Source: a virus
IMG/VR virus record: IMGVR_UViG_3300048918_000366
Location: 1 to 37,723 of that record
DNA: 37,723 bases
Reading direction: 5' to 3' (one strand)
In this document: piece after piece, positions 12,992-36,643 of the stretch
Position numbering within the stretch: position 1 is the first letter of the stretch
Layout of the letters: each line of letters starts with the position of its first letter
Program-made: the position numbers and the translations under genes
Notes under the pieces: generated by a model
Database searches by the model: none
Told to the model about the DNA's origin: nothing
What the model saw: only the letters and a program-made list of their open reading frames with translations

Positions 12992-14194
12992 GTGAGCGCA
13001 TTCCTGCTTGGCATAGGCTTCCGCGCCGACATGGGCACCTGCGCACGAAAGCTGGTGCTGTTGAAGCTGATCGACGCCTGTGAGGATGACGGTAGCCGCA
13101 TCTTCCCGGCAATCTCCACCATCGCGCGCGCGGCGCAATGCTCGACGCGCCAGGTGCAGCGCGAACTGAAGGCGTTCCTTGACATCGGCCTGATCAGGCT
13201 GGTGCGCGAGGGCGGCAAGGGGCCGCGCAGCACCAATGAATACGCGCTCGACCTCGATGTGCTGCAGCTTCTCGGCAAAGGCGGATGGTCGCTGGTGGCC
13301 GGCAATCGTGCTGAGAATAAGGGTGACACCGTGTCACCCTTCGAAAGCGAGGAAAAGGGTGACACCAGCGACGCCCCAAGGGTGACACCGGAGACGGATA
13401 AGGGTGACAAGCTGAGTCACCCAACCCCTCCAGACCCCTCCCTTGATCCCTCCGGTGAGAGAGAGCGCGAGCGCGACCGGGACGAACAGAAAACCGTCGA
13501 GCGATGGCTGAAGCGGGTTCACCCGACCTGGCCGACCTTCGTTGCCGACAGCGGCAAGACGGCGTTCGCGGCGGCGATGGCGCTGACGCCTGCGGAACGC
13601 GAGATGGCGGCGGACCGCATGGCCGATTACCTCGCCGCCGAGAAGCTGACCAAGGGCCGATGCGCGTTCGGCGTGTACCTCTCGGAAAAGCGCTGGGAAC
13701 GGCTTGGGCCGAAGCCGGAAGCGCCTGAGAAACCAGCCTATGCGCCGGCCTTCGGCCCGGTGTGGGCGGCGATCCGCATGCGCGACCTGGTCACCGGGGC
13801 GAAGGCTGAACCGGCGCCGCTGAAGGGCTGGGAGGAACGGGCTATCGAGGCTGGAACCCTGAACCGCGAGACGCTTGAGCGCGGCAACCGGATGCGCAGC
13901 GGATGGCCGATGGTCAACGGGCTGCACCTTGCCGCCGAGACGCGCGGCCTCGGCATCCACAGCTTCGGCCCGGAAGAGGAACGGCTCGGCAAGCTCTGCG
14001 AGTTCGTGCCGGTCGGCACCGAATGCTGGGAAGCCTGGAAGCTCGAGCACGAGCTGCGCGGCTGGCCTTGGCTGCCAGATCCCGGAACGATGCGCGGTGT
14101 CTACTTCCCGGTTGGCGGACCGGGCGGACTGGAAGCTTTCGAACAGGCGGTGCGAGGACAGCATGATGCGGGCGGACGTGAAGCGGCTGAATGA
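12992..14194 (+). CDS. Replication initiator-like HTH protein, 400 aa
   Basis: GTG start with GAGAGAGG upstream, two bases after the HNH stop. Residues ~20-90 form a winged HTH (IFPAISTIARAAQCSTRQVQ, RELKAFLDIGLIRLV) of the type found at the N-terminus of phage replication proteins (HTH_36/replication O-like). Residues ~109-145 contain the repeated tripeptide KGD (KGDTVSPF, KGDTSDAP, DKGDKLSHP), which is the translation of tandem DNA repeats described separately. Residues ~150-170 are a charged linker (GERERERDRDEQK), then a C-terminal helical region. The repeats inside the gene resemble the lambda O/ori arrangement. No helicase loader gene is obvious nearby. Confidence 0.72.
   Translation: MSAFLLGIGFRADMGTCARKLVLLKLIDACEDDGSRIFPAISTIARAAQCSTRQVQRELKAFLDIGLIRLVREGGKGPRSTNEYALDLDVLQLLGKGGWSLVAGNRAENKGDTVSPFESEEKGDTSDAPRVTPETDKGDKLSHPTPPDPSLDPSGERERERDRDEQKTVERWLKRVHPTWPTFVADSGKTAFAAAMALTPAEREMAADRMADYLAAEKLTKGRCAFGVYLSEKRWERLGPKPEAPEKPAYAPAFGPVWAAIRMRDLVTGAKAEPAPLKGWEERAIEAGTLNRETLERGNRMRSGWPMVNGLHLAAETRGLGIHSFGPEEERLGKLCEFVPVGTECWEAWKLEHELRGWPWLPDPGTMRGVYFPVGGPGGLEAFEQAVRGQHDAGGREAAE
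13319..13422 (+). other. Iteron-like repeats: candidate phage replication origin
   Basis: AAGGGTGACACC occurs at 13319-13330, 13355-13366 and 13378-13389, with a shorter copy AAGGGTGACA at 13400-13409 and inverted GTCACCC at 13333-13339 and 13416-13422. The first copy forms the perfect dyad GGGTGACAC-C-GTGTCACCC (13321-13339). Repeats of this kind inside an initiator gene are the hallmark of lambdoid origins, where the N-terminal HTH of the initiator binds the iterons. No strongly A/T-rich unwinding tract follows immediately, which lowers confidence. Confidence 0.65.
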
Positions 14195-14849
14195 TCGGGA
14201 GCACGTCTGGGTGGATCGCTCGACGGGCGAGGTGATCAATGTCGACCGCGCCTGGCAGAAGAGCGATCGGCGAATCGCATTGACGCGCCGCGAGCAGGCG
14301 ATGCTCGCCGCGGCTGGTCAGGACGGTCCGGAGGCTCGCTGGTACGTGCTCCGGGTCGAGGATCGCGCCGACATTGCTGTGGATAAGTTGCTGGAAGATG
14401 CCAATGTCGAGCGCGTCATGCTGCACACGCAGAGCGAGCCGAAGCGGCGCGGACGCCGCAAGCATCAGTCTTTGGAACCTGTTCGGGTGCCATCCTTTCC
14501 GGGCTACATCTTCGTCAAGGTGGTGTCATGCGCAGCGACATGGGCAGGTCTGCGGACGGTCTCTGGCGTGCTCGGTCCGATCGGCGGCTGCGATAGTCCA
14601 AGCCCGGTCAGCGAACAGGAAATCCTTAAATTCCAAGCACGTATCGAAAACGACCCCGATGCGATCGCAGTGCTGACCAATGCGCTGAAGGCAGGCGACA
14701 AGGTGTCGATCGACAGTGGTCCGTTCGCCGGCTTCGAGGCTGTGGTGCTGATGCTTGGCGACAAGCACAAGGTGCAGGTCGAGGTCGACATATTTGGTCG
14801 CAAGACGCCGATCGGCTTCGCTCTTGCGGAAGTGACGAAACTGGATTAG
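14163..14849 (+). CDS. Phage NusG paralog (NGN + KOW), 228 aa
   Basis: Residues ~58-163 match a NusG N-terminal domain (ARWYVLRVEDRAD; VRVPSFPGYIFVKV; GLRTVSGVLGPIGG). Residues ~176-228 are the KOW domain (LKAGDKVSIDSGPFAGFEAVV; VEVDIFGRKTPIGFALAEVTKL). A 55-residue N-terminal extension (MMRADVKRLNDREHVWVDR) has no counterpart in housekeeping NusG, which is about 180 aa. GAGGAC precedes the ATG; a second ATG follows at once. The gene overlaps the 3' end of the initiator gene by 32 bases and is the last of the early operon, just before the late genes. It should bind RNA polymerase and modify elongation; a specialised antiterminator like RfaH or Q in effect is the natural inference. Confidence 0.85.
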   Translation: MMRADVKRLNDREHVWVDRSTGEVINVDRAWQKSDRRIALTRREQAMLAAAGQDGPEARWYVLRVEDRADIAVDKLLEDANVERVMLHTQSEPKRRGRRKHQSLEPVRVPSFPGYIFVKVVSCAATWAGLRTVSGVLGPIGGCDSPSPVSEQEILKFQARIENDPDAIAVLTNALKAGDKVSIDSGPFAGFEAVVLMLGDKHKVQVEVDIFGRKTPIGFALAEVTKLD

Positions 14850-14963
14850 CGAATCCCACCCAGGACGAGCTGAAAGAGTCGCACGCCGAACAGGTGGACC
14901 GCGCCATCAGCCCCAGGGGAGGCAACCCAGCTTCCCCGCAATGGATAAGATTCCACACACAGC

Positions 14964-15335
14964 ATGGCAAACAAGCCGAGGACCTTCCGTCCCTCGCATC
15001 TTCCATCTCGTGAGGATGCGACAAGGCTTTACGATCGCGGCCGTGATCAGCAGCCATGGCGTCGCTGGTACAAGACGGCACGATGGCAGAAGCTTCGCGC
15101 TGATCAGCTTGCCGAAGAGCCTCTTTGCCGCAACTGCATGAAGCACGGTCGGATCACCGCCGCCACCGTGTGCGACCACATCGAACGGCATGGTGGCGAT
15201 CCCGGCCGCTTCTGGAGCGGGCCATTCCAGTCCCTCTGCGACCAGGCGCCGTGGCGCTGCCACTCCAGCGAGAAGCAGCGCCAGGAGCGGCAGGATGGGG
15301 GGGCGGGTCAAAAGTCAGGCGCCCTGAGGGCCTAG
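14964..15335 (+). CDS. HNH endonuclease of the packaging module, 123 aa
   Basis: Resembles HK97 gp74-type HNH proteins that lie next to the terminase genes: RWYKTARWQKLRADQL, LCRNC, ATVCDHIERHGGDPGRFW, QSLC, CHSSEKQRQER. CRNC plus the later C and CH form the zinc knuckles and DHI supplies the catalytic His/Asp. In HK97-like phages this protein works with TerL in genome packaging cleavage. No ribosome-binding site precedes the ATG and no better start is open, so the exact start is weaker than the identity. The 114 bp before it hold no recognisable gene or terminator. Confidence 0.8.
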   Translation: MANKPRTFRPSHLPSREDATRLYDRGRDQQPWRRWYKTARWQKLRADQLAEEPLCRNCMKHGRITAATVCDHIERHGGDPGRFWSGPFQSLCDQAPWRCHSSEKQRQERQDGGAGQKSGALRA

Positions 15336-15430: not shown

Positions 15431-16060
15431 ATGGCGCGCGGCAGAAAGCCGGAAACGGCTGAACAGCAGGCGCTGAAAGGCGCACCGGGTAAGCGCATGT
15501 CGCAGAAGGAAGCGCAGGCGATCCGTTCGGAGACAAAGACGGCAGCGCCGTCGCCGATCGTGATCGGCAATGTCCGCCCGCCGAAATGGTTGAAGCGCAG
15601 CCGCAAAGCGACCGAGATATGGAATGATCTCGCGCCGCGGCTGGCAAAGCTGAACCTCGTCAGCGAACTCGATGCGGTGCCGCTCGGTCGTTATTGCCGG
15701 TACATCGTCGAATGGATTGCCGCCGATCTCGCCGTGCAGAAGGAAGGCACCTGGTTCGATACCGTGGGCACGAACGGCGAGCCGACGAAGAAGCGCCATC
15801 CTGCGTGGCAGGCGTGCCAGGACCTGGAGAAGATGCTGCGGGAGACCGAGGCAGCTTTCGGTATGCGACCTGACACGCGTTACAAGATCATGCGCGACCA
15901 GGCGCTTTCGCATGGCGTCCTGCCGCTGTTCGAGCGCAACAGCCAGAGCGAACAGCAGCCTCAACCGGCAACGACGCCAACAGCCACACCATCGCCGGAA
16001 GATGATCCCATCGGGTTTCTCGCCGGCTTCGATTCCGCGCCTCCCGGCCGTGCGAACTGA
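15431..16060 (+). CDS. terS: Terminase small subunit, P27 family, 209 aa
   Basis: P27-type features: basic N-terminus MARGRKPETAEQQALKG with PGK, then KRSRKATEIWNDLAPRL, ELDAVPLGRYCRYIVEWI and the helical region around QACQDLEKMLRETEAAFGM. The C-terminal ~40 residues are a low-complexity Pro/Thr/Gln tail (QQPQPATTPTATPSPEDD). TerS recognises the packaging site and recruits TerL. GGAGGG lies upstream of the ATG. The 95-bp gap between the HNH gene and this gene is where a cos site would be expected in an HK97-like layout; I see only a short dyad and a run of seven T there and cannot identify cos. Confidence 0.9.
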   Translation: MARGRKPETAEQQALKGAPGKRMSQKEAQAIRSETKTAAPSPIVIGNVRPPKWLKRSRKATEIWNDLAPRLAKLNLVSELDAVPLGRYCRYIVEWIAADLAVQKEGTWFDTVGTNGEPTKKRHPAWQACQDLEKMLRETEAAFGMRPDTRYKIMRDQALSHGVLPLFERNSQSEQQPQPATTPTATPSPEDDPIGFLAGFDSAPPGRAN

Positions 16061-16062
16061 AC

Positions 16063-17859
16063 ATGCCGATTGCCGAGACGTCGGCTGCAGCGATAGCCGC
16101 CTCTGCCGGGCATCTCTTGTGGCCGGAACCGCAATGGGTGCTCGACGCAGTGGCGCGCGGCTGGGAATGGGCGAGGATCCAGTGGCGCCGTGCGGCATCG
16201 CAGGCTGGCGCCTGGTTTGACGAACGCAAGGCCGACGCCGCGGTTGCGCTGTTCCCGCGCATCTTCCGGCTGACGCTCGACCGCTTCGCCGGAAAGCCAT
16301 TTCGGCTGACACTCTGGCAGGAAGTCATTGTTCGGCTGCTCGTCGGCTGGAAAATACCGGTTGAGATCGTCGACGATGAGCAGTCGGCGCCGCACACCGA
16401 GCAGGTTCGTCTATTCCGCAGGCTCTTGCTGTGGGTACCACGCAAGAATGGCAAATCGGAATTCCTGGCCGCGCTGGCGCTGCTGTTCTTCATTCTCGAC
16501 GGTGTCGTCGGCGGGGAAGGATACGCCTTCGCCCGCGACGAAAAGCAGGGCAAGATCGTCTTCGACAAGATGAAGGCCATGCTCGCCATGTCGCCGGCGC
16601 TGGCCGACAAGGGGCAGGCGTTCAAGAAATCGATATGGATCCCGAAAATCCGGGCCATGTTCGAACTGCTGTCGGGAAAGCCGGAAGGCAAGCACGGTCG
16701 CTCCCCAACCGTCATCGTCGGCGACGAGATGCACGAATGGCATACCGCCGAACTCGCCAACACGCTGCGCCAAGGTACCGGCGCCCGCCTCGAGCCGATC
16801 GAGCTCTACGCCTCGACCTCCGGTCTCAAGACAAACCAGACCGGGTGGGCGTTATGGGAAGAATCGAACGCCATTCTCGACGGGCGTATCGACGATCCGA
16901 CCTCACTGGTTGTGATCTTCGCCGTCGATCAGGAAGCTGACTGGCGCGACGAAAGCATCTGGTCTCTGGCGAACCCTTCGCTCGGCATCTCGCCGACCAT
17001 GCAATTCCTGCGGCGCGAAGCCGCGCTTGCCGCCGACAACCCGCGCGCGGAAGCGCATTTCCGCTGCTACCATCTCAACCAGTGGATTGACGCGGTCACC
17101 CGCTGGCTGAATTTGAAGAAGTGGGACGCATGCACCGCCGATAAGACCGGATGGCAGGCGTATGTCGTCAAGGATGGCGAAGACTTCGGTGAGAAGATGC
17201 GGGCCGCTGGGCTCGCCGGCCGCCGTTGCTTCGGAGCGTTCGACATCTCGTCGACCGACGACATAACTGCTCTCGTCTGGGCATTTCCGCCCGATGCCGA
17301 AAACCCCAAATGGAAATTGGTCTGCCGTTTCTGGGTGCCAGAAGAAAGCATCAAAAGGCGGGTCAAGAACGACCGGGTTTCCTACGATCGCTGGCAGAAG
17401 CTCTGCGCCATCACGACGACGCCCGGCGACTATGTCGACCAGGATTATGTGAAGCAGGCGGTGCTGGAAGGGCTTGAGGCCTTCGACGTGGCCGCGATCG
17501 GTTACGACAGCTGGAACGCGACCAAGCTCTACACAGACCTGGTGAAGGACGGCGCACCCGAGGACTTGTTCCTCAAAATGCGACAGGGACACCAGACGCT
17601 CGGCGAGCCGACCAAGTTCTTCGAAAGCCTCGTTTCCTTCGGGAAGCTGGACCATGGAGGAAACCCCGTCATGCGCTGGATGGCCGGCAACACCGCTGTG
17701 CGCTTCGACGAAAACATGAACTTCGTCCCGACGAAGAAGCGCAGCGCAGAAAAGATCGACGGCATCGTTGCTGCGATCATGGCTTGTGGCCTGGCCATCT
17801 CCGCTGAAGAACCGGTCGACCTCGACGAATACCTGCGCGGTGGAGTGATGGCGGCATGA
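16063..17859 (+). CDS. terL: Terminase large subunit, 598 aa
   Basis: ATPase-nuclease that drives DNA into the prohead. Walker A is VPRKNGKS (125-132), Walker B TVIVGDE (D221, E222), with a coupling region around ELYASTSG. The C-terminal nuclease has FGAFDISSTDDITAL (D394) and a distal acidic residue in AEKIDGIVAAIMA (D566). Length matches the HK97/P27-associated large terminases. The start is two bases after terS and the stop overlaps the portal ATG (ATGA). Confidence 0.95.
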   Translation: MPIAETSAAAIAASAGHLLWPEPQWVLDAVARGWEWARIQWRRAASQAGAWFDERKADAAVALFPRIFRLTLDRFAGKPFRLTLWQEVIVRLLVGWKIPVEIVDDEQSAPHTEQVRLFRRLLLWVPRKNGKSEFLAALALLFFILDGVVGGEGYAFARDEKQGKIVFDKMKAMLAMSPALADKGQAFKKSIWIPKIRAMFELLSGKPEGKHGRSPTVIVGDEMHEWHTAELANTLRQGTGARLEPIELYASTSGLKTNQTGWALWEESNAILDGRIDDPTSLVVIFAVDQEADWRDESIWSLANPSLGISPTMQFLRREAALAADNPRAEAHFRCYHLNQWIDAVTRWLNLKKWDACTADKTGWQAYVVKDGEDFGEKMRAAGLAGRRCFGAFDISSTDDITALVWAFPPDAENPKWKLVCRFWVPEESIKRRVKNDRVSYDRWQKLCAITTTPGDYVDQDYVKQAVLEGLEAFDVAAIGYDSWNATKLYTDLVKDGAPEDLFLKMRQGHQTLGEPTKFFESLVSFGKLDHGGNPVMRWMAGNTAVRFDENMNFVPTKKRSAEKIDGIVAAIMACGLAISAEEPVDLDEYLRGGVMAA

Positions 17860-19088
17860 GCTGGCTTTCCATGTGGTGGTCAAAGCCGGCACTGAAGGTG
17901 CGGGATCCCGAGAATTCGCGTCGCGGCTCACACGATTCATGGGCCGGCAAAGCGACGACGCCAGATGCGGTGCTTCAGTTGGCAACAGCATGGGCTTGCA
18001 TTCGGCTTAAGAGCCGTGTTGGCGGCTCTTTGCCTCTGAAAGTGCATACCAGAGGTTCGGGATTGGTGATCGACGATCACCCGCTCTATTCGCTCCTTCA
18101 CGACAGTCCCAATGCCAACCAGACGGCCATGGAGTTCTGGGAGGGTCAGTTCGCGTGCATGGACCTACGCGGCAATGCCTATGCCGAGAAGGTATACATG
18201 GGGCAGCGCCTGGTTGCCTTGGTCCCGATGCATCCGGACAACACGCATCCGTACCGCGCCGCCGACGGCTCACGACGTTATCGGTACTATGATCCGGTCA
18301 CTGGATTTCATGATTGGGGCGAAGACAAGGTTTTCCACCTTCGCAGCTTCGGGACCGGTGGCCTGGTTGGCTTGTCGCCGATCTCATACGGAAGGCAGAC
18401 CTTGGGAACGGCCCTTGCCGCAGACGAAGTCGCGGGGCGTACGTTCGCAAACGGGTTGCAGGTCTCGGGCTTTGCAGAAGACCAGCCGAACGCCAAGACC
18501 AACCAGAAGCAGCGCGAAGAGTTGGTCGAACTGTTTGACAAGTTCTCCGGATCTGAGCGCGCCGGCAAGGTTATGCCACTCCCGCCCGGCTTCAGCTTCA
18601 AAGAGCTGAGCATGAAGCCGGAAGATGCTCAGCTCCTGGAGACACGGGGCTTCCATGTCGAGGAGATATGCCGCTGGTTTGGCGTGTTTCCGATCCTGAT
18701 TGGCCATGCTGCCCAAGGCCAGACGATGTGGGGAACCGGCGTCGAATCGATCAATCTTGCCTGGTTGACGCTCTACCTCGGACCGGAACTTCAGCGCGTC
18801 GAGCAGGCGATTGAAAAGCAGCTCATGACGGCGGTCGACCGGTCAAAGTTCTACGTAGAACACAATGTGGACGCGCTGTTGCGTGCCGATAGCCAGGGCC
18901 GTGCAGCACTGTACTCCGTGCAGGCTCAGAACGGTTTGAAGACCCGCAATGAGATGCGCCGTCGGGAAAACGATCCGCCGCTTCCCGGTGGCGACGTTCT
19001 CACCGTCCAATCAAACCTCCTGCCTCTCGACATGCTTGGCAAAACCCCGCCGCGCGCCGTTCAGCCCGCGCCTGGCGAACCGATCTAG
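17856..19088 (+). CDS. Portal protein, HK97 family, 410 aa
   Basis: Typical HK97-type portal: AWACIRLKSRVGGSLPLKVH near residues 48-67, HPLYSLLHDSPNANQTAMEFWE, LRGNAYAEKVY, VFHLRSFGTGGLVGLSPI, and the wing/stem segment ETRGFHVEEICRWFGVFP. The dodecameric portal forms the DNA channel at one capsid vertex and the docking site for terminase and connector. Pro-rich C-terminal tail. Expected position between TerL and protease. Confidence 0.95.
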   Translation: MSWLSMWWSKPALKVRDPENSRRGSHDSWAGKATTPDAVLQLATAWACIRLKSRVGGSLPLKVHTRGSGLVIDDHPLYSLLHDSPNANQTAMEFWEGQFACMDLRGNAYAEKVYMGQRLVALVPMHPDNTHPYRAADGSRRYRYYDPVTGFHDWGEDKVFHLRSFGTGGLVGLSPISYGRQTLGTALAADEVAGRTFANGLQVSGFAEDQPNAKTNQKQREELVELFDKFSGSERAGKVMPLPPGFSFKELSMKPEDAQLLETRGFHVEEICRWFGVFPILIGHAAQGQTMWGTGVESINLAWLTLYLGPELQRVEQAIEKQLMTAVDRSKFYVEHNVDALLRADSQGRAALYSVQAQNGLKTRNEMRRRENDPPLPGGDVLTVQSNLLPLDMLGKTPPRAVQPAPGEPI

Positions 19089-19097
19089 GAGACGGCC

Positions 19098-19790
19098 ATG
19101 AAAACCAAAGATTTCCCGCTACAGGTCAAGGATGTGTCGGATGACGGCACGTTCGAAGGTTATGGGTCCGTCTTCGGGGTTCGCGACAGCTACAACGAGA
19201 GCGTGGAGCCCGGTGCCTTCGTTGAGAGCCTTGTGCGCCACAAGCGCGAGGGCAGTTCACCCCTGATGCTGTGGCAGCACGATCCGTGGACGCCGATCGG
19301 CGTCTGGGAAGACATGGCCGAAGACAAGAAAGGCCTGTGGGGCAAGGGCCGCCTGCTCGGCGGCGTCCAGAAGGCCGACGAAGCCAAGATCCTGCTCAAG
19401 GCTGGCGCCATACAGGGTCTTTCGATCGGCTACCGTGAGGTCGATACGACGCCGTCGGAGAATGGCGGCCCACGCAAGCTGGTGAAGCTCGATCTCCTCG
19501 AGGTGTCGATCGTGTCGTTTCCGGCCAATCGCCGGGCACGCGTCGAATCCGTGAAATCGGAAGTCATGGAGGAATTCGTTCGCCGCCTGCGCGATGGCGA
19601 CCCCATGCCCGTGAAAGAATTCGAGGACATCCTGCGCGAAGCAGGGGTCCCGAAAGCCATGGCCGTACAGATCGCCTCTGTCGGCTATGCGAAGGCCATT
19701 CGGAGTGAGTCCGAGGGCGAGGCGAGCCAACCAGCTGAATCGGCACTCAAGGCGCTGCGCGCCGCTGTCGACGGCTTCAAGACCCTCTAA
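19098..19790 (+). CDS. Prohead maturation protease, HK97 (U35) family, 230 aa
   Basis: Serine protease that cleaves the capsid delta domain and itself. The catalytic triad is visible: H61 in LWQHDPWTPIG, S109 in IQGLSIGY, E135 in LLEVSIVSFPAN. GGAGAC lies upstream of the ATG. Residues ~160-230 are the C-terminal tail expected to be lost on maturation. Its substrate is the capsid protein encoded next, whose N-terminus is hydrophobic here. Confidence 0.94.
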   Translation: MKTKDFPLQVKDVSDDGTFEGYGSVFGVRDSYNESVEPGAFVESLVRHKREGSSPLMLWQHDPWTPIGVWEDMAEDKKGLWGKGRLLGGVQKADEAKILLKAGAIQGLSIGYREVDTTPSENGGPRKLVKLDLLEVSIVSFPANRRARVESVKSEVMEEFVRRLRDGDPMPVKEFEDILREAGVPKAMAVQIASVGYAKAIRSESEGEASQPAESALKALRAAVDGFKTL

Positions 19791-19809
19791 ACAGAACAGG
19801 AACACTCCC

Positions 19810-21147
19810 ATGAAGATGACCCGTAACCGGGCGTTCGCGCTCGGCATCCTGGCATGCGTAGCGCTTGCCGTTTTCCTTGTCGTCGTCGGCTTCGACCCGC
19901 TCGGCGGTCACAGTGGCATGATCATTGCCACCGCAGCAGCAGGTGGTGCCGCCGATCTCGAAAAGCTCGCGATCGAACTGAAAGACGCCGCCGACATCGT
20001 CAAGAAGCAGGCCGAGACGACATCGACCGAGATAAAGAACCTCGGCAAGGTCACCGAAGAGACCAAAAAGGCGGCCGATGAAGCCTTGATCAAGCACAAT
20101 GAGATTTCGGCGCGCCTGACCGAGATCGAGCAGAAGATGGCGCGCACGCCCGGCACTCCGGAGCGCCGCAAGTCTCTCGGTCAGCAGTTCACCGAGAATG
20201 ACGAGGTCAAGGCATTCCTCGCCGCCAAGAAGTCCAAGGGCAGCGTCAGCTTTTCGACCAAGGCGATCATCTCCGCCTTGACCACGGATGCCGACGGTTC
20301 CGCCGGCGATCTCATCGTTCCGCAGCGCGTCGCTGGCATCATCGCCCCGCCGCAACGTCGCATGACGATCCGTGATCTGCTCACGCCCGGCAATACCGAC
20401 AAGAACGCCATTCAGTACGTGAAGGAAACCGGCTTCACCAACGCGGCGGCGACCGTTTCCGAAACGGCGGGCGGTGCCAAGCCGCAGTCCGACATCAAGT
20501 TCGACATCATGACGACTTCGGTCACCACGATCGCGCACTGGGTGTTGGCAACCAAGCAGATCCTCGACGACGTGCCGCAGCTCCAGTCCTATATCGACGG
20601 ACGCCTGCGTTACGGCCTGATGTATGTCGAGGAAAACCAGCTCCTCAATGGTGGCGGTACCGGCACCGATCTGAACGGCATTTATACCCAAGCCACCAAC
20701 TATGCCGCGCCGATCAATCCGACTGCTGCCGGCAACCTGACCAAGATCGATGTCATCCGCCTTGCGATCCTGCAGGCGTTCTTGGCCGAATATCCAGCCA
20801 ACGGCATCGTGCTGCATCCGTCCGACTGGGCGGATATCGAGCTGACCAAGACCGACGTTGGCGACTATCTCTTCGCCAACCCGCAGAACGGTACCGAGCC
20901 GCGTCTGTGGCGCCTGCCTGTCGTGGAAACCCAGGCGATGACGGTCGACCGATTCCTGACCGGGGCGTTCCAGCTCGGCGCACAGATCTTCGATCGCGAG
21001 GATGCGAACGTCGAGTTGAGCACCGAAGACAGCGACAATTTCCGCAAGAACCTCGTCACCATCCGTGCCGAGGAGCGCCTTGCTCTCGCGGTCTACCGCC
21101 CCGAGAGCTTCATCAAGGGTGCCTTCGCCACCGCGCTCGCTGCGTGA
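19810..21147 (+). CDS. Major capsid protein, HK97 fold, with hydrophobic N-terminus
   Basis: 445 aa. Residues ~8-28 (FALGILACVALAVFLVVVGF) form a strong membrane-type helix after a basic MKMTRNR, an unusual start for a capsid protein. Residues ~48-112 form a coiled-coil delta/scaffold domain (LEKLAIELKDAADIVKKQ, EISARLTEIEQKM). The HK97 core follows: DGSAGDLIVPQRV, VKETGFTNAAATV, ETAGGAKPQS, AHWVLATKQILDD, LLNGGGTGTDLNGI, VLHPSDWADIELTK, RLWRLPVVET, RAEERLALAVYRPESFIKG. AGGAA lies seven bases before the ATG, supporting the long start; an internal ATG at 19918 that would skip the hydrophobic part has no such site. The delta region would be removed by the upstream protease. Confidence 0.93.
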   Translation: MKMTRNRAFALGILACVALAVFLVVVGFDPLGGHSGMIIATAAAGGAADLEKLAIELKDAADIVKKQAETTSTEIKNLGKVTEETKKAADEALIKHNEISARLTEIEQKMARTPGTPERRKSLGQQFTENDEVKAFLAAKKSKGSVSFSTKAIISALTTDADGSAGDLIVPQRVAGIIAPPQRRMTIRDLLTPGNTDKNAIQYVKETGFTNAAATVSETAGGAKPQSDIKFDIMTTSVTTIAHWVLATKQILDDVPQLQSYIDGRLRYGLMYVEENQLLNGGGTGTDLNGIYTQATNYAAPINPTAAGNLTKIDVIRLAILQAFLAEYPANGIVLHPSDWADIELTKTDVGDYLFANPQNGTEPRLWRLPVVETQAMTVDRFLTGAFQLGAQIFDREDANVELSTEDSDNFRKNLVTIRAEERLALAVYRPESFIKGAFATALAA

Positions 21148-21164
21148 TCGTTCGGTTGATCAAG

Positions 21165-21186
21165 GCGGGCGGCTCCGGCCGCCCGC
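21165..21186 (+). other. UNCG-loop hairpin after the capsid gene
   Basis: A perfect 9-bp stem, GCGGGCGGC / GCCGCCCGC, is capped by TCCG, a UNCG-class tetraloop with a C-G closing pair. No T-run follows, so it is not a standard terminator. Placed 17 bases after the capsid stop, it could protect the capsid mRNA 3' end or pause polymerase and reduce expression of the next genes. Confidence 0.7.
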
Positions 21187-21210
21187 TCTATGAGCCGAAG
21201 GAGACAAGCG

Positions 21211-21456
21211 ATGAAACTCAAGTCAATCGACCAGATCAGCATAAGCGCGGTGAAGGCCGACAGCCTTCGCCCCGGCGAGGAATTCGAGGTCGGCGATGCC
21301 TATGGGGCGGAGCTGATCAAGCAGCATCCCGACAAATTCGAGGTTTTGGAGACGGCTGAAGAGAAGTCGGAAGCCGCCCCCGAAAACAAGGCCGAAGGCG
21401 CCGCTCCGGCGAACAAGGTCATCACCGGTCGCAAGACCAAAGCAAAGGCCCAGTAG
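21211..21456 (+). CDS. Small head-region protein, 81 aa
   Basis: AAGGAG precedes MKLKSIDQISISAVKAD. Residues 1-50 form a compact beta domain (LRPGEEFEVGDAYGAELI, KFEVLET), followed by a charged Ala/Lys/Glu tail ending in GRKTKAKAQ. Small proteins of this type occur right after the capsid gene in many Rhizobiales prophages; their role in the head is not known to me. Could be a decoration or head-completion factor. Confidence 0.75.
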   Translation: MKLKSIDQISISAVKADSLRPGEEFEVGDAYGAELIKQHPDKFEVLETAEEKSEAAPENKAEGAAPANKVITGRKTKAKAQ

Positions 21457-21499
21457 GGGCCGTCACCTGGCGCTTCGGCGTCGATCTGAGGAGAAGACC

Positions 21500-21862
21500 A
21501 TGCGTCGTTACAAGCTTTCCATCACCACGGACGCCGGAGGTGCCGCGACGGCCTACAGCCCGCGTATCGCCGGCAAGATCCACAGCATCCAGTATGTGAA
21601 AACTGACTTTGCGAACGGTGTCGGCTTCACCGTGACCGCAGAAGCAACCGGCGAGAGCATCTGGGCCGAAGCCGCCGTCAATGCTTCCGCCGTCCGCTAT
21701 CCTCGCGCCCCGACGCATACCCAGGCCGGCGCCGCTGCGCTTTATGCGGCCGGTGGCGTGGCTGTGCAGGACAAGATCGGTCTCGCCAGCGACCGCGTGA
21801 AGGTGGTCATTGCTTCGGGCGGCGCGACAAAGACCGGCACCATTCACATCCTGGTCGACTGA
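21500..21862 (+). CDS. Conserved siphophage structural-region protein, 120 aa
   Basis: GAGGAGAAG lies upstream of MRRYKLSITTDAGGAATAY. Beta-rich chain: SPRIAGKIHSIQYVKTDFAN, FTVTAEATGESIWAEA, APTHTQAGAAALYAAGG, DRVKVVIASGG. This family recurs between capsid and connector genes of HK97-like phages; a role as head decoration or minor head protein is an inference from position and all-beta composition. Confidence 0.78.
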   Translation: MRRYKLSITTDAGGAATAYSPRIAGKIHSIQYVKTDFANGVGFTVTAEATGESIWAEAAVNASAVRYPRAPTHTQAGAAALYAAGGVAVQDKIGLASDRVKVVIASGGATKTGTIHILVD

Positions 21863-21865
21863 TCC

Positions 21866-22483
21866 ATGGCCGTCCGCGTCATCATCCCGCCATCGCCCAT
21901 CGTCACGCCGGCGGATATCGCCGGCGATCACGCTGCCGACGATGCCACGGTGGCGGCGATGATCGCGGCCGTCACCGAAGAGATCGATGGTCCGACCGGC
22001 TGGCTCGGTCGGGCCATCGGTCCGCAGACGCTTGAACTGACGTTCCCGGCGTTCTGTGGCCGTGCCGTGCGCCTGCCGTGCCCGCCCATCATCGGCAATA
22101 TCTCGCTGAAATATCTCGACGGAGCGGAAGTCGTGCAGACCGTCGATACCGCCAACTATCGGCTGGTCGATGATCAACTTTGGCTGGCGCGCGGGTTTTC
22201 CTTTCCGCCGATCGCTTGCGAGCCGGATGCGATCAGGATCCGCTATGACGCCGGCTACAACGGCGCCGGCGACGGCAAGACCGGCGCCATTCCCGAGCGT
22301 GCGCGCCAGGCGATCATCCTGTCCGTGCAGCACATGGCTTCGCTCGATGTCGAAAGCCTCTATCTGCGTGTCGACGAGGTCGACGGCGTTGGCCGACGCG
22401 AGTTCACGCTCTCCGATCAGGCCAGCAGCATCATCGAACGCACTTGCGATCGGCTGCTTGACGGTCTGCGAGTTTTCATATGA
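21866..22483 (+). CDS. Head-tail connector, phiE125 gp8 type, 205 aa
   Basis: Matches the phiE125 gp8/gp6-like connector pattern: an N-terminal helical part (DDATVAAMIAAVTEEIDGPTGWLG), then TLELTFPAFC, VRLPCPPI, LKYLDGAEVV, DAIRIRYDAGY, and a C-terminal helix with PERARQAIILSVQHMASL. Connector rings attach below the portal and receive the tail. ATGA overlap with the following gene. Confidence 0.85.
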   Translation: MAVRVIIPPSPIVTPADIAGDHAADDATVAAMIAAVTEEIDGPTGWLGRAIGPQTLELTFPAFCGRAVRLPCPPIIGNISLKYLDGAEVVQTVDTANYRLVDDQLWLARGFSFPPIACEPDAIRIRYDAGYNGAGDGKTGAIPERARQAIILSVQHMASLDVESLYLRVDEVDGVGRREFTLSDQASSIIERTCDRLLDGLRVFI

Positions 22484-22857
22484 CGCCAGACCAGGCCATC
22501 GCGTCGCTCGACAGTCAGCTTGCCGCCCACGGCGAGGACTGCACCCTGCGCCGCAAGGAAGGTTCGCCTGTCGTCGACAAGGATGTCACCGTCCGCGCTT
22601 CCGTCCGTGGCCTGCGCGCGGCCGAGATCGTCGGCACGGCGACACAGGCGTATTCGAAAGCGGTGATCTCCCTGACGCAGATCCTGGCCGCTGGCTGGCC
22701 GGCTGGCCATGTCGTCGCGCCAGGCGCTGTCGATCCGCGTATTCCGCGCACGAACGACTTCCTTGTCGTCAAGGGCAAGCAGCGCCAGATCATGTTCGCG
22801 GATCCGATCGCGGTTAACGGCGTCGTGGTGCGCATCAACCTGACGGTGGCGGGCTGA
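22480..22857 (+). CDS. Head closure / head-tail joining protein, 125 aa
   Basis: Small beta-rich protein directly after the connector: SQLAAHGEDCTLRRKEG, VTVRASVRGLRAAEIVG, NDFLVVKGKQRQIMFADPI, VVVRINLTVAG. Size and position match head-closure proteins (SPP1 gp16/HK97 gp7 class) that seal the portal and join the tail. Family assignment relies on synteny more than on a motif. Overlaps both neighbours (ATGA, TGATG). Confidence 0.75.
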   Translation: MTPDQAIASLDSQLAAHGEDCTLRRKEGSPVVDKDVTVRASVRGLRAAEIVGTATQAYSKAVISLTQILAAGWPAGHVVAPGAVDPRIPRTNDFLVVKGKQRQIMFADPIAVNGVVVRINLTVAG

Positions 22858-23498
22858 TGGCGACTGGGTTCGAGTTCTTCGAGCGCGATCTGCGCGTGGC
22901 CACCGCAGGCCTCGAACCGGATGAGATCAACCGGACGGTGGCGGCGTTTGCCAAGCGCGAAGTCGCACGTGTCATCGCCGAAGGCCTGGCCACGCCGAAC
23001 TATGTCAGGATCGTCAATGGCGTCGCCGACATCGCCGAGGAAAGCTACCGGGCGCCCGGCGCGATCATCTACGAATTCATAAACTGGGACCTGGTCATCA
23101 AGGCGGCGCTGGCGGAACTGCAGAAGCGGTCGCCGCGCAAGTCCGGCCGGTTCGCTTCCTCCTTCATCGTCGTTGTCGGCGGGCGCACCGTCGTCACCGA
23201 CTTCACCAGGATCCGGCCCGATGCCGAGATCATCATCACCAATTTCCAGCCCTATGTCCGCAAGGCCGAGGTCGGCCGGCTTGGCATCGCGGAACGGTAC
23301 CTGTTCGCCGGAGCTGCCCGGGCAATGGTCAGCCGCTTCAGTGGTGCGTTCACCTTCACATCCAAGTTCGTGGATGTCCCGGGCAGCATCCATTCGGACA
23401 TGCCGTATCGGCTGAAAGGTCGCGGCAGCAATGACCGGATCAGCCGCAAATCCGGTGTGTTGAGCTATCCCTCGATCATCATCAATCCGGTGAACTGA
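22857..23498 (+). CDS. HK97 gp10-like tail-completion protein, 213 aa
   Basis: TGATG overlap with the joining gene. LQKRSPRKSGRFASSFIVVVGG (about 85-105) is the 'SPVxSGRLRxSW' type core of gp10-like neck proteins; the C-terminal DRISRKSGVLSYPSIIINPV is beta-rich. The protein is longer than classical gp10 (~120-150 aa), with a helical N-terminal extension (FEFFERDLRVATAGLE). Role at the head-tail interface is inferred from order. Confidence 0.75.
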   Translation: MATGFEFFERDLRVATAGLEPDEINRTVAAFAKREVARVIAEGLATPNYVRIVNGVADIAEESYRAPGAIIYEFINWDLVIKAALAELQKRSPRKSGRFASSFIVVVGGRTVVTDFTRIRPDAEIIITNFQPYVRKAEVGRLGIAERYLFAGAARAMVSRFSGAFTFTSKFVDVPGSIHSDMPYRLKGRGSNDRISRKSGVLSYPSIIINPVN

Positions 23499-23938
23499 TG
23501 TCCAGCCCTGAAGCCTTCGACGCGTTCAAGGGTGTGCTCGACACCTATGCCGCCGGCGCTGGCGCATTGCCGGTCCGCTACGAAAACGAATTCGTGCAGG
23601 ACCTGATCGACGCCAACACGCCAGCGTGGCTGTACGTCGAGGTCTATGGCGATTCCTACAATCAGGACACGATGGGCGCGCCTGGCGCGAACGCATGGGA
23701 AGAACGCGGGGTCACCTATCTGCATGTGATGACGCCGAGCGGCAGCGGCAGCAGGGCAGGGCGCGTTCACGCCAACCGGTTGCTCTATCTCTTCCGCGAG
23801 CGACCGATCGGCAATCTGTTCATGCCGGAAATGTCCATCGGCGCGGGTGCGCCTGGAGTGGACTTCCCGAACTACTATTCCACCGCGGGAACCATCTTCT
23901 GGACCCGCCGCGACATCACGTCGGTACCGACGACCTAA
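23498..23938 (+). CDS. Tail terminator protein, 146 aa
   Basis: TGATG overlap upstream. The fold pattern is typical of tail terminators: an N-terminal helix (AFDAFKGVLDTYAAG), LPVRYENEFVQ, AWLYVEVYGDS, then GVTYLHVMTP, HANRLLYLFRERPIG, MSIGAGAPGVDFPNYY. The hexamer caps the tail tube and binds the neck. Position directly before the tail tube gene supports it. Confidence 0.82.
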   Translation: MSSPEAFDAFKGVLDTYAAGAGALPVRYENEFVQDLIDANTPAWLYVEVYGDSYNQDTMGAPGANAWEERGVTYLHVMTPSGSGSRAGRVHANRLLYLFRERPIGNLFMPEMSIGAGAPGVDFPNYYSTAGTIFWTRRDITSVPTT

Positions 23939-23981
23939 ATCCCGGCTCGACCGGTCTTTCTGAGAGCAAAGGAGAAGCACC

Positions 23982-24923
23982 ATGTCGTTCGCTGACGGCA
24001 GTCAAGTCCGTTTGGCCGATGTGTCGGAAGCGACGATCGGCGCAATTCCGGCCACGCCGGTTTTCCAGGTCATGCGTTACCGGACGGCCAGCGTCCGCAT
24101 CAACAAGCAGACCGATATCTCGGATGAGGTCCGCGCCGATCGCAATGTGCCCGGCATCACCGATGTCGGCCGCGCGGTCACCGGCACGATCGAAACCCGG
24201 TTCTCGTACAACACCTACAATACCTGGCTTGAGCGCCTGCTGTGCTCCACCTTCTCGACCGGCGTCCTGAAGAACGGCATCACGCCCAAGGCCGGCACGC
24301 TGGAATTCACTTATGAGCAGGGCGCGACCGACAGCTATATCAGGTACACAGGCTGCCGTTGGAACACGCTCGACCTCAACCTGCGCTCGCGTGCGCCGGT
24401 GCAGGCATCGTGGGGCATCATGGGTATCGACAGCCCGACGCCGACCACCGCCATTATCGCCGGCGCGACATACACGGCGGCAACGACCACGGAAGATTTC
24501 AACGCCGGGCTCAATGTCGCGGACCTGACCATCACCTCGGACACGCTGGTGGCATCGCCAAAGGTCCAGGCGATGAGCCTGCGCATCACCAACAATATCT
24601 ACCAGGTCGATGTTGTCGGGTCCTACGCGCCGTATGGCCATGGCCTCGGGCGGTTCGAGGTCAGCGGTACCATGACGGTGCTGTTCGAGAGCCTGGCCGC
24701 CTACAGCGCCATCCTCAATCATGAGGATGTGACGATCGGCTTCACCCTCGAGGATGCCGCCGGCAACACGCTGGAATTCTCGCTGCCGAAGACGAAGTTC
24801 CTCGACGGCGGTCCCGCCGCTCCCGGAAACGGCCAGCCTGTCGTCATCGAAGTGCCTTTCCAGGGCTTCTATGACCCGAGCTCGGCCGCGACCATCACCA
24901 TCACCAAGACGGATGCAACCTGA
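23982..24923 (+). CDS. Major tail tube protein, 313 aa
   Basis: AAAGGAG lies upstream of MSFADGSQVRLADVSEATIG. Tail-tube hallmarks: TISD-like DEVRADRNVPGITDVG, TGTIETRFSYNTYNTWLERLL, SYIRYTGCRWNTLDLNL, FEVSGTMTVLFES, IEVPFQGFYDPSSAATITI. Forms stacked hexameric rings of the non-contractile tail. Followed by a TGATG overlap with a small gene and then by a strong hairpin. Confidence 0.9.
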   Translation: MSFADGSQVRLADVSEATIGAIPATPVFQVMRYRTASVRINKQTDISDEVRADRNVPGITDVGRAVTGTIETRFSYNTYNTWLERLLCSTFSTGVLKNGITPKAGTLEFTYEQGATDSYIRYTGCRWNTLDLNLRSRAPVQASWGIMGIDSPTPTTAIIAGATYTAATTTEDFNAGLNVADLTITSDTLVASPKVQAMSLRITNNIYQVDVVGSYAPYGHGLGRFEVSGTMTVLFESLAAYSAILNHEDVTIGFTLEDAAGNTLEFSLPKTKFLDGGPAAPGNGQPVVIEVPFQGFYDPSSAATITITKTDAT

Positions 24924-25189
24924 TGCGCAAGCCCAAGAAAACCGCCCAGCCGACCGGATCCGGCCCCGAGCCGATCCTTCCTCTCACCGATTTCCGAGCT
25001 GATCCGTGGAACACGGGTGACAAGAACGCGGTCGCGTTCCGCGCCGGCATCCTGTCGTCGCCGGTGCCGCCGGAGTTTGCGCAGAAAGCGCGCGACGATG
25101 GCCAAGCCGCTCCGGCCTCCGATCATCCCAAGCCGCCGACGGCCAGGGAAAGGCAGTCAACCGAACCTGCTCCCGAAAAGCAGGACTGA
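24923..25189 (+). CDS. Small disordered tail-region protein, 88 aa
   Basis: TGATG overlap with the tail-tube gene. The chain is rich in Pro, Ala, Lys and Glu (MRKPKKTAQPTGSGPEPILP; QAAPASDHPKPPTARERQS), with only one ordered segment (NTGDKNAVAFRAGILSSPVP). Probably disordered; no family recognised. Its translational coupling to the tail tube suggests a tail-associated or regulatory role. Confidence 0.65.
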   Translation: MRKPKKTAQPTGSGPEPILPLTDFRADPWNTGDKNAVAFRAGILSSPVPPEFAQKARDDGQAAPASDHPKPPTARERQSTEPAPEKQD

Positions 25190-25223
25190 TCAGTCCTCAC
25201 AAAGACTGGTTTCTGCGCAGAAC

Positions 25224-25249
25224 GGCCGGAGCGTTCGGGCGCTCCGGCC
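25224..25249 (+). other. Hairpin between tail-tube block and tail chaperones
   Basis: A perfect 10-bp stem, GGCCGGAGCG / CGCTCCGGCC, with loop TTCGGG and no T-run after it. Like the hairpin after the capsid gene, it follows a highly expressed structural gene and precedes genes needed in low amount, so a stabilising or attenuating RNA structure is likely. Confidence 0.7.
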
Positions 25250-25274
25250 ACAATCCTCCCGAAAGGATATCGTC

Positions 25275-25709
25275 ATGACCATCAAGCTTTCATCGGTGAA
25301 AGCCGATCTGTCGCGCGAGGAAAAAGGCGACTGGATTCCGTCGCCGGATTTCCCTGGGGCTGAGTTCAACGTCTCCTCGCTGCATCTTCCCGCCTACCAG
25401 ACAGCGCTTGCCCTCATGGAGCAGCGGCTCGCCCGCGCCTACAAGGGAACGCCCGTTCCGCCGCATATCCGTACCGTCGAGGTCGGCAAGCTGCTTCACA
25501 AGCATATCCTGCACGACTGGCGTGGTTTCGATCAGCCATACAGCCCGGATCTGGCGCGCGAGATGATGTGCGAGCCGGAAGGCCGCAACTTCATCGCAGG
25601 CGTCCAGAACTGCGCGGCCATGGTTTCGCTCACCGATGTCGAGTTCGTCGAGGAAGCGGGAAAAAACTCCTCGAGGCCTTCCGCGACAGGATCCGGCGAG
25701 AAGGCCTAG
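25275..25709 (+). CDS. Tail assembly chaperone, gpG-like (0-frame product), 144 aa
   Basis: GAAAGG lies before MTIKLSSVKADLSREEKGDW. The N-terminal region binds target sequence FPGAEFNVSSLHLPAYQTAL; the middle is helical (LMEQRLARAYKGTPVPPHI, VGKLLHKHILHDWRGFD, REMMCEPEGRNFIAGVQNCA). In siphophages gpG and gpGT bind the tape measure and guide tail-tube polymerisation. The 0-frame ends at TAG 25707-25709, 13 codons after a slippery site. The last residues (NSSRPSATGSGEKA) are low-complexity, as is common for the unshifted tail. Confidence 0.85.
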   Translation: MTIKLSSVKADLSREEKGDWIPSPDFPGAEFNVSSLHLPAYQTALALMEQRLARAYKGTPVPPHIRTVEVGKLLHKHILHDWRGFDQPYSPDLAREMMCEPEGRNFIAGVQNCAAMVSLTDVEFVEEAGKNSSRPSATGSGEKA

Positions 25710-26065
25710 ATGTCGAACGCCAGGAATGGCTTGAAGCGCTGGCGGCCGAAGAGGGCGCCGAAGAATGGGTCATCAAGGCGGCCTATCCCGCCGGTCGCAT
25801 AGAGTTCGAGCCGGAGCCCTGGCACCGACTCTACTGGCAGGCGTGGGAGGCAATCCGTTTTGATCGCTTCTATGGCGCCATGGGTGGCGAGGGTCCGATC
25901 TCCTACATGGTGATCAGGACCTATGCCGACGATCACGGCATTGCGGGCGACGACTTCAAGTTGTTCCGGGCCTTTCTCAAGATCCTCGACGACGCCTGGC
26001 TTATGCATGTCGCGGAACGCGACAAGCCCGCGGCGACGGAAAGTGCGCCTCCATCCTCCTCATAG
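25275..26065 (+). CDS. Tail assembly chaperone gpGT, made by -1 frameshift, 263 aa
   Basis: Joined product of 25275-25667 and 25667-26065. The -1 frame continues ...EEAGKKLLEAFRDRIRREG, then DVERQEWLEALAAEEGAEEW, a W/Y-rich core (RIEFEPEPWHRLYWQAWEAI; FDRFYGAMGGEGPISYMVI) and a helical end (DFKLFRAFLKILDDAWLMHV), with no stop until TGA... actually TAG-class termination at 26063-26065. The T part lacks its own start near the junction and reads as a natural continuation, which is the classical G/GT arrangement. The T domain should contact the tail tube while G binds the tape measure. Confidence 0.85.
25661..25707 (+). other. Programmed -1 ribosomal frameshift signal
   Basis: The heptamer A_AAA_AAC (25661-25667) is in the correct phase of the 0-frame (GGA AAA AAC). 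Six bases later AGGCCTT (25674-25680) pairs with AAGGCCT (25701-25707), giving a 7-bp stem with inner pairing possible (CCG with CGG). The 0-frame stop lies at the foot of the stem. Slippery site, spacer and stem are all standard for -1 frameshifting. Confidence 0.88.
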
Positions 26066-26080
26066 GTTTGCGGGAATTTC

Positions 26081-29000
26081 ATGGTCCAGCAATTGTCATC
26101 CCTGCGGGTCGCGCCCGAGCTTGACGCCACCAAGTATACGGCCGGCGCACAGCAGAAGGTCGCGGCCGACAAGGCCATGGCGGCGTCCAACCGTGAGGTT
26201 GCCGCCACGGCGGCGCAGACCGATGCCAAGATCGTGCAATCCGGAGACGTGCTGGCGCGCCTCTCGCGGCAGTTCGTCGACGGCTATGCCTCGGCGCAGC
26301 GCATGAATTCGGCGCTGAACTCGCTGTCGCGCGGCATCGACAACGGCAAGATCAAGATGGAGCAGGCCGGTCCGATCCTCGACGGCATTCTGCGGAAGTA
26401 CCAGCTTGCCGGCGACGCATCGCTGTTCATGGCGCGTGGCCAGACCGAGCTTGCCGCGGCCGTCTCGGCGGCGAACGCCAAACTGGCGGCGCAGAAGCAG
26501 ATCGCGCCGGCCAACAGCAATGTGGGCGCGCCCGGTGCGGGCGGAAGCGATTCTTTCCGCCGCACGAATCTCGGCTACCAGGCTTTCGACATTGGCCAGG
26601 GCCTGGCCGCCGGAACGCCTTTGGCGATCATCGCCGCGCAGCAGGGTCCGCAGATCGCCCAGATGTATGCCGCCCAGGGCGGGCTGAATGCCTTGCTGAA
26701 GGATACTGTCGGGATCCTCGGCGGTGTGGCGCGCGCGGCCGGGCCGTGGATTGCCGCCCTGGCCGCCATTTACGGCGCGTACAGGCTCATCGCCTCGTTT
26801 TCCGCCGAGGCGGCCATTGGCGTAGACAGTGCGACCCGTGCGTTGGCGGAGCAGGCGTCTTCGGTCGATTCCATCGACGGCAAGATCAAGGATCTCGTCT
26901 CCATCCAGAGCGAGTATCAGAACGCGATTACCACCACGGCCGACGCGCAATCCGCCGCCTCGGCCTCGATCGTTGCCAGCACCCAGCGGGAATTCGACGC
27001 CAAAAAACAGTTGCTGGAACTGGAACTGAAACGGCAAGAGGCTTCGATCAAGCTGCAGGAATCCGAATTGGCTCTTGCCGGGCTCAACCTGCGCAAGAGC
27101 GTCGACCAGCAGGTGTTCACGCGCAGCGACCTCGAACGGCAGGGCTATGCCGATCCCCGCATCAACGGCGGCATTCCCTTCGTTCGCCTGCCGGACGATG
27201 TCACCGGTCACCAGAAGACGCAGGAGGTCCTCGAAAACAATCCGTTGTTCGACAAGATCAAGGAGTTGCAGGCGAACCTGCAATTGACGGAGCTGGGCGC
27301 CGAACGGCTGCGCGAAGCGGTCAAGAAGGTGTTCAACGATGCCGGCGGCGTCGGCGGTCCGACATTTGCCGGCGGCAACATTCCGATTCCGCATTTCCGG
27401 GGCGTGGATGACAATCCGGCCGACCAGGATTTCATGAATGATTTCGGCAAGTCGTCCGCGCGTCAGATCACCGACATGCAGAACCAGGCGACGGCCCTCG
27501 GCCTGACCGGTGCGGCGCTAGAAGCCTTCACATTCAAGCAGCAGGCGCTGAATGCGGCGCTCGCACAAAATCTCGAACTTGGGCCCGACCAGGTCGCCAT
27601 CATTGAAAAGCAGGCCAAGGCTTATGGCGAGGCTGCGGAGGCCTTGTCCCGGGCGCGCCTGGACAAGGACCTTGCGTTCGAGCGCGACCAGATGTTCCGG
27701 TCGGCGCAGGACCAGCAGATCGCGTCGCGACAGCAGGGGGCCGGACTTGCGGTGGATCTGAATTCGCCGTCCGCGCAGCAGATGCGCGACATGGCGAAAT
27801 TCACCGACGCCAAGGAACTGGCGAGCGGGTTCCTCACCGACTTCAAATCCGAGCTTCTGCGCAACGGCGGTGATGTCGGCAAGGCCCTCGGCACGTCGAT
27901 CCTCAACGCGCTGACCAAGTCCATGGACGATCAGCTGGGCAAGGTCTTCGACACCATCGCAAACTGGCTTGCCTCGGCGATTACCGGCCAGCGGCCGGGA
28001 GTCGCGGGTGCATCGCCGCTTGGTGCCGGATCCAGCATAGTCGGTTCCGTGTTGAGTGGCGCCAATGACAACTATGCGTCCGGAGCCGTCACGCGGGCGC
28101 CCTTGGCCGCGGTAACGTCGCTTTCGGCCTCCGCCACCAGCGACGTCGCGGCCTATATCAAGCAGGCTTCGCTGATCCGAAACATTGATCCGGACATCGC
28201 CCTCAAGGTCGCCAAATCGGAAGGTCTTGGGCCTGGCATCTGGCAGAGCAACTATGTCAAGAACGGGTTTCGCGAGCCGTCCTTTGGGCCATTCCAGCTC
28301 CTCAAAGGCGGAGCCGGTACCGGTTTCCCGACAGGTCTCGGCAATCAGTTCATGGCGCAGACCGGTCTCGACCCGAGCAATCCGGCCAATGTCGGCCCTG
28401 GTATCGATTTTGCGCTCAATCATGCCGCGAAAAACGGCTGGGGTGCATGGTACGGGGCCAAGGCAGCCGGTGTTGGCAATTGGGAAGGCCTGTCGGGCGC
28501 GTCCCCGGTGGCGATCGGCTCCTCTGCGACCAAAGCGAGCGAGGCTCTGGACAAGATGTCCACCTCGGCGATGGATGCCGGCAAGAACCTGACCGACAGC
28601 ATCGGCAATCTTGGCAAGACCCTCACCGGCGGTGTCGACGGCAAGGGCGGTCTTGCGTCCATCCTGGACGGCCTCAAGCCGCAGAATTTCCAGGCGAACA
28701 CAACCCTGTCGGATATCCTCGGCTATTCCGGCGGCGGTGCCGCGTCCGGCTCGTCCGGCGGCGGTTTCCTCGGCACGCTGCTCGGCTTCATCCCGAAACT
28801 GTTCGGCTTTGCTGGCGGCACGGATTTCGCGCCTGGCGGGCTGGCCCGGATCAACGAACAGGGCGGTGAGATCGTCGATCTGCCGCGCGGTTCCCGCGTC
28901 ATCCCGCATGATGTCTCGATGCGGATGGCGGCCAATGCCAACCGGCCGGCGCCGTCGCCGGCCAAGATCGAGCTTCATACGCACATCTATGGCGGGTCCG

Positions 29001-29125: not shown

Positions 29126-29128
29126 GCG

Positions 29129-29884: not shown

Positions 29885-29887
29885 GCC

Positions 29888-30520: not shown

Positions 30521-30540
30521 CTAACCCTCGGAGTGTTCCA

Positions 30541-33625: not shown

Positions 33626-33697
33626 AGGCCCCCGTTCGCAAATCACCCTCTTTTGCCCCTGCCGTCCCGGTGGGGTCTCCAGCCCTGGAGCTTCCGC

Positions 33698-36427: not shown

Positions 36428-36466
36428 GGGTTGCAAAGAAGGGGCTATGGTGCGAAGAAAATCGCC

Positions 36467-36643
36467 ATGTCCGTCACAAATCGCGCCGCCCTTGTCTTCG
36501 TTTCGCTAGCCGTCCTTTTGGCTGGACTGCTTATGATTGGGAACTTTCGGCATCCTCAAGGAGCCGCTGTCGCCTGCGTCTCGCTGGCGCAGAAAAACCT
36601 ACCGGCCGGATCGTGGTATTCGGCCGTCTGCCCAGGCTTCTGA
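36467..36643 (+). CDS. Small single-span membrane protein, 58 aa
   Basis: MSVTNRAALVFVSLAVLLAG starts a chain with one N-terminal hydrophobic helix (ALVFVSLAVLLAGLLMIGNF) followed by a short soluble part with two Cys (VACVSLAQKN, SAVCPGF), perhaps a periplasmic disulfide. No strong ribosome-binding site; a TTG 12 codons upstream is an alternative start. It sits between the tail fibre and a polytopic membrane protein. Unknown; a lysogenic-conversion accessory or, less likely, a spanin-like piece. Confidence 0.55.
   Translation: MSVTNRAALVFVSLAVLLAGLLMIGNFRHPQGAAVACVSLAQKNLPAGSWYSAVCPGF

Follow-up and report, generated by a model that had tools for sequence, protein, structure and literature searches.

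A NusG paralog gene and a conserved two-stem element behind it form a candidate late-gene antitermination module in rhizobial phages

At the boundary between its early and late genes, a phage genome carries a gene for a NusG paralog and, directly behind it, a noncoding element with two conserved stems. We consider it likely that the paralog and the element, acting in cis as a structured RNA, constitute a processive antitermination module for the late genes. The protein falls in a clade separate from host NusG, the order of the genes around it is fixed, the stems carry compensatory changes, the element and the gene are linked one to one, and much of the clade has terminators directly behind the element. 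Because a predicted folded RNA signal lies directly behind nusG and is often followed in relatives by a terminator, the pair is probably the switch into the late genes.

The DNA studied was positions 1-37,723 of the IMG/VR virus record IMGVR_UViG_3300048918_000366, a virus record of its own; this whole stretch of 37,723 nucleotides is called the window below. The nearest bacterial-genome relatives of the protein, 84-92% identical, are prophage-like loci in Mesorhizobium, which makes a Mesorhizobium host likely. The minus strand encodes, at 2187-3059, a CI/LexA-like repressor with an HTH and an S24 peptidase domain, which points to a temperate phage, here taken as one of soil bacteria. The genes and domains on which the argument turns are as follows.

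12992..14194, plus strand: replication initiator gene, directly upstream of the NusG paralog gene and overlapping its start; order kept in relatives
14163..14849, plus strand: phage NusG paralog gene, 228 aa, start ATGATG, stop codon TAG at 14847-14849
14163..14333, plus strand: N-terminal extension (residues 1-57), conserved in close and variable in distant relatives
14337..14633, plus strand: NGN domain (residues 59-157, Pfam)
14691..14846, plus strand: KOW domain, all-beta in the structure model, IFGR motif kept
14964..15335, plus strand: HNH endonuclease gene, the first gene 3' of the element; other genes take this place in relatives
15431..36643, plus strand: late gene block (small and large terminase, portal, protease, capsid, tail, tape measure, fibres)

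An earlier note on this DNA had placed the NusG-like gene at the early/late boundary. The gene order agrees, with the replication initiator upstream and the HNH gene, the terminase and the other late genes downstream, all on the plus strand. In cultured phages too, the nusG gene stands between the replication initiator and HNH/terminase. The late block spans about 22 kb, and all of its genes are on the plus strand; no sigma-70-like promoter was found near the early/late boundary. Further upstream, the region 6294-10291 encodes a ParB-like/DNA methyltransferase protein and then an 874-aa protein that matches both DNA helicase and DNA methyltransferase families. The protein encoded at 11704-12159, in the early region two genes upstream of the replication initiator, matches phrog_2044, which is named 'RNA polymerase beta subunit' (1.6e-23), and has no Pfam match. 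Between the HNH and terminase genes, at 15297-15387, a poly-G tract (GGGGGGGCGGGTCAAAAGTC) is followed by a T-run. A G-tract and T-run also precede the terminase in several relatives of otherwise different sequence, and the region is possibly a cos site or packaging signal.

The reading of 14163-14849 as an NGN-KOW protein held up. The frame is open over 228 codons before the stop, the NGN domain matches Pfam NusG above its cut-off (E=9.6e-15), and a KOW domain is visible, which scores under its own Pfam cut-off and is aligned in full by a profile of the family. The protein thus has the arrangement of the NusG/Spt5 superfamily, an NGN domain followed by a KOW domain. Residues 52-227 match phrog_6386, 'transcription antiterminator' (6e-43). 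The ATGATG start lies inside the end of the replication-initiator gene, and nearly all close relatives share the resulting 'MM' start. The AlphaFold2 model was of moderate quality (mean pLDDT 73.7, with residues 1-13 at very low confidence) and contained a helix at 27-51 in the extension, the NGN domain and an all-beta KOW domain; a Foldseek search with this model gave NusG as the best matches. The IFGR motif appears as VDIFGRKTP in the phage protein and as VSIFGRATP in E. coli NusG, and it is kept in most members of the family. In the KOW domain of E. coli NusG, IFGR is located on the face that engages S10 and Rho. As for the N-terminal extension, described earlier as 55 residues long and novel, it is indeed present (residues 1 to about 57), but since all near relatives have it and most distant ones have a shortened, divergent form, it is a feature of the clade and not unique to this phage.

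The protein was then placed among NusG paralogs. A maximum-likelihood tree placed 39 phage proteins together in a single group (support 91/90), separate from both host NusG and the RfaH-like paralogs. The protein scored below the curated cut-offs of the known subfamilies: 78.6 against 135.7 bits for housekeeping NusG (TIGR00922), 51.6 against 144.5 for RfaH, 54.7 against 125 for LoaP and 66.5 against 100 for UpxY. For the family profile, E. coli-type NusG gave the best alignment and RfaH a weaker one. The cultured or induced rhizobial phages vB_MseS-P1, phi3LM21, PPF1, Rivra and phi2LM21 already have such genes annotated as NusG or antiterminator, and all phiLM21-like prophages close their early region with an antiterminator gene (PMC12429752). 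In Mesorhizobium genomes (L052, L053 and L054, from 1501 onward) there is another NusG-family gene, which encodes about 190-210 aa, is nearest to RfaH and stands apart from both host NusG and phage NusG.

The earlier note had proposed a search of 14850-15430 for a conserved element. Aligning the DNA 3' of nusG among relatives revealed one, at 14861-14956, as a block that is kept while the next gene differs. It starts 12 nt past the nusG stop codon and has the following parts.

14861..14956, plus strand: conserved two-stem noncoding element of about 96 nt, candidate antitermination/recruitment RNA
14863..14868, plus strand: 5' box GGACGA, near-invariant; GGAYGA in most relatives
14869..14873, plus strand: 5' arm of stem 1, GCUGA, pairing with 14907-14911
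14907..14911, plus strand: 3' arm of stem 1, UCAGC, with compensatory changes among relatives
14916..14923, plus strand: 5' arm of stem 2, GGGGAGGC, from fold prediction and covariation
14930..14937, plus strand: 3' arm of stem 2, GCUUCCCC, from fold prediction and covariation
14938..14944, plus strand: conserved tail GCAAUGG, 3' of stem 2; AGUGCxxxxGCUAUG in the other subtype

Overall, the elements share a common plan: the box GGAYGA, a stem 1 that encloses a variable domain, the sequence CCC, a stem 2 whose loop varies, and then either GCAAUGG or AGUGCxxxxGCUAUG. Between the window and nine close relatives, identity was 0.79-0.91 in the nusG gene and 0.77-0.94 in the 107 nt 3' of it (at least 0.85 in all but one of the nine). 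Beyond that, over 300 nt in which other genes start, it was 0.31-0.48 with every close relative except L016. Thus the element is about as conserved as the nusG gene, though it is noncoding, and unrelated genes occupy the DNA past it.

Several results support the predicted fold. The two-stem fold beats shuffled sequences (z of -2.8 and -2.5). In a consensus structure of 18 sequences, 97% of cells were paired and 17 cells had changed on both sides, a result that none of 500 shuffles reached, with the reservation that genes and elements are inherited together, so that the shuffle figures here, like the permutation, linkage and control figures that follow, overstate independence and significance. 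For stem 1 in 57 elements, mean pairing within a sequence was 11.5, against 10.7 for the highest mean in 1000 permutations; some stems were overlooked or misplaced by the automatic detection, an error that should make this test more conservative. The pair sets observed in stem 1 were GCUG/CAGC, GCCG/CGGC, CCUG/CAGG, UCUUG/CAAGA, UCCGUU/AACGGA and CCGGGG/UCCCGG. In the second subtype, the paired cells and the covariation score were likewise beyond shuffles. Two elements are unusual. One (L035:4688-4812) combines the 5' domain of one subtype with the other's 3' hairpin and tail, which suggests that the two parts are exchangeable. In the other (L006:3217-3329), a long C run inside stem 2 breaks the pairing, a possible assembly error or decayed site.

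The element might also be a DNA site near the terminase genes, such as a packaging site, an origin or a protein-binding dyad, and not an RNA at all. Its position fits, as packaging sites are common at early/late boundaries. Nevertheless, loop lengths vary freely while the stems keep their pairing, a terminator in the same orientation comes next in many relatives, and the element is linked with nusG and not with the terminase, from which other genes separate it. We regard a DNA site as very improbable, and a structured RNA as probably the better description. Nor did the idea that the N-terminal extension reads a DNA pause site find support. Ops-like matches in the window occurred at chance level only, in agreement with the statement of the earlier note that no ops-like site is known here, and the signal that is linked to the gene looks like a structured RNA.

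To quantify the linkage between element and gene, we used covariance models. The first, R1, found one copy in the window at 109 bits, with the next best match at 15. Among 146 Mesorhizobium genomes, the phage nusG was present in 11 and the R1 element in 10; all ten elements lay directly behind the phage nusG and none elsewhere, and the eleventh nusG-bearing genome had the second element subtype. R1 also recovered divergent elements beyond its training set (L039, L089, L086, L035 and L040). From the second subtype we built model R2, which gave 48 matches at E<=1e-6 in 395 genomes of the family Rhizobiaceae, every one of them behind a NusG-like ORF, although about one third of the 48 are the training loci of R2 itself, the remainder being new, and the training set overlaps the genomes searched. 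The ORF was 54-143 nt upstream on the same strand at 30 plus 9 of these loci, and the other 9 matched mapped nusG coordinates. Scanning viral contigs for the exact pattern of the element returned the known loci and, by chance, also matched two unrelated contigs (L020 and L021). A search of the whole class, with a strict threshold, returned only the reference genome and extension-less NusG-like matches in two small genomes. In one locus (L152:1555-1660, minus strand), a NusG-like gene and an element are followed by a tRNA-like sequence; this may be what is left of a prophage at an attachment site.

The linkage bears on another explanation, in which the RNA element acts alone on RNA polymerase in the manner of HK022 put, and NusG is only a general elongation aid or is linked by descent. 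The put RNA is about 70 nt long, has two stem-loops and works without a dedicated protein (PMC9378689), and the element described here is also made of two stem-loops and is of similar size. However, the element and nusG occurred together in every case checked (10/10 and 48/48), and they travel as a unit while the downstream genes are swapped. A put-like element acting alone is thus unlikely, though it is the least unlikely of the alternatives that we weighed, and we retain the reading in which the protein and the RNA work as a pair.

What lies behind the element is also informative. In the 160 nt that start inside the R2 element, an intrinsic terminator (a perfect GC-rich stem, then T-rich sequence) was present at 22 of 30 loci, compared with 0.94% of control windows. 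The typical sequence is GGCGGCC-GAAA-GGUCGCC-UUUUU; several loci have other stems, with seven stem types in all. The cultured phages Rivra, phi2LM21, phi3LM21 and PPF1 likewise have a terminator behind the element. No canonical terminator was found directly behind the element in the window or in its Mesorhizobium relatives. The T-run at 15381, the only run of at least six T on the plus strand of the window, was considered as its terminator and rejected, as it has no stable hairpin and its fold is no better than that of shuffles. In the Mesorhizobium-type subgroup, the stops to be overcome would have to depend on Rho, be weaker or lie further downstream, unless the mechanism differs. Matches to boxA, the RNA site of lambda N antitermination, were not above chance in the window, and none lies in the element.

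A position 12 nt past the stop codon, with a terminator next in many relatives, would also suit a feature of the 3' UTR through which nusG itself is controlled (autoregulation or stability), or a NusG-responsive attenuator that limits early read-through. We think this improbable, somewhat more so than the put-like case. In cultured relatives the next genes lead into the terminase and structural genes, and two conserved covarying stems with near-invariant boxes would be superfluous for a plain 3' UTR.

Antitermination by the pair remains our preferred reading. The earlier proposal that a specialised phage NusG serves as the late antiterminator has good comparative support from the clade, the position, the linked element and the terminators of relatives, and from these we infer how the module might operate. 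Early transcription would run through the replication genes and nusG. The element would be made just 3' of nusG, and its two stems would fold at the RNA polymerase exit channel. The active form would thus be RNA, and the folded stems, by binding the phage NusG, would recruit it to replace host NusG on the polymerase, with the NGN domain presumably sitting on the polymerase clamp, as in other members of the family. The polymerase so modified would then pass the terminator that is seen directly behind the element in many relatives, as well as further stop signals in the late block of about 22 kb, the late genes being the presumed target.

On balance, we favour the view that in phages of Rhizobiaceae the late genes are run by a NusG paralog whose recognition signal is a dedicated two-stem RNA located behind the paralog's gene. 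With the same degree of confidence, the late switch of these phages would be of a molecularly new type, and the paralogs would be the second NusG lineage, after LoaP, with an RNA signal of its own. If so, RNA-guided recruitment of NusG arose or spread beyond LoaP, and the switch-on of late genes would be explained in many temperate phages whose hosts are nitrogen-fixing and plant-associated bacteria. The module would also offer a compact natural system for dissecting how RNA, NusG and polymerase cooperate, and would supply a new family of RNAs together with a candidate protein partner.

The gene itself was already known. The phrog_6386 family and the annotated NusG of phi3LM21, PPF1, Rivra and vB_MseS-P1 are the same protein family in the same position, but the records and papers found describe no cis RNA, terminator linkage or mechanism. 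The element had no match in Rfam at gathering or relaxed thresholds, and neither Rfam nor the open-access literature searched contained the cis element, its covariation, its tie to the gene or the terminator behind it. These four features, the tie to the gene being one to one, are what is new here.

Among known systems, lambda N/nut and Q/qut resemble the module in position and in probable role at the early/late boundary, but their proteins are unrelated, and boxA-like matches were at background here. RfaH is likewise a NusG-family specialised regulator of long operons; by contrast, the phage protein forms its own clade far below the RfaH cut-off, lacks an ops site beyond chance and has a KOW domain modelled as all-beta. 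HK022 put is a phage cis RNA with two stem-loops, linked to antitermination (PMC9378689). It differs in using no dedicated protein, in serving early operons and in having two copies per phage, whereas here a single copy per phage always lies behind a NusG paralog. The closest likeness is to LoaP of Bacillus/Firmicutes, which needs a leader RNA hairpin (dfn/mln), and reads through a NusA-dependent terminator; according to the same paper, no other bacterial NusG-like protein is known to associate with a specific RNA element (PMC12691694). LoaP acts through an RNA structure that stands before an intrinsic terminator, on a long target operon (PMC12691694), and the phage paralog would act in a similar way. 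A candidate structured RNA linked to the target operon is present here in the element at 14861-14956 and in those of its relatives; a terminator behind the RNA is present in the second subtype, at the proportion given above, and none was found behind the element of the window. Unlike LoaP, the gene here is a phage gene from another bacterial lineage and scores below the LoaP cut-off, and the predicted element has two stems directly behind the NusG gene, where LoaP uses a small UNCG hairpin, a form that the element of the window does not have. On the features tested, the module is a member of neither LoaP nor put, and the best reading, by analogy, is that it works like LoaP without belonging to it.
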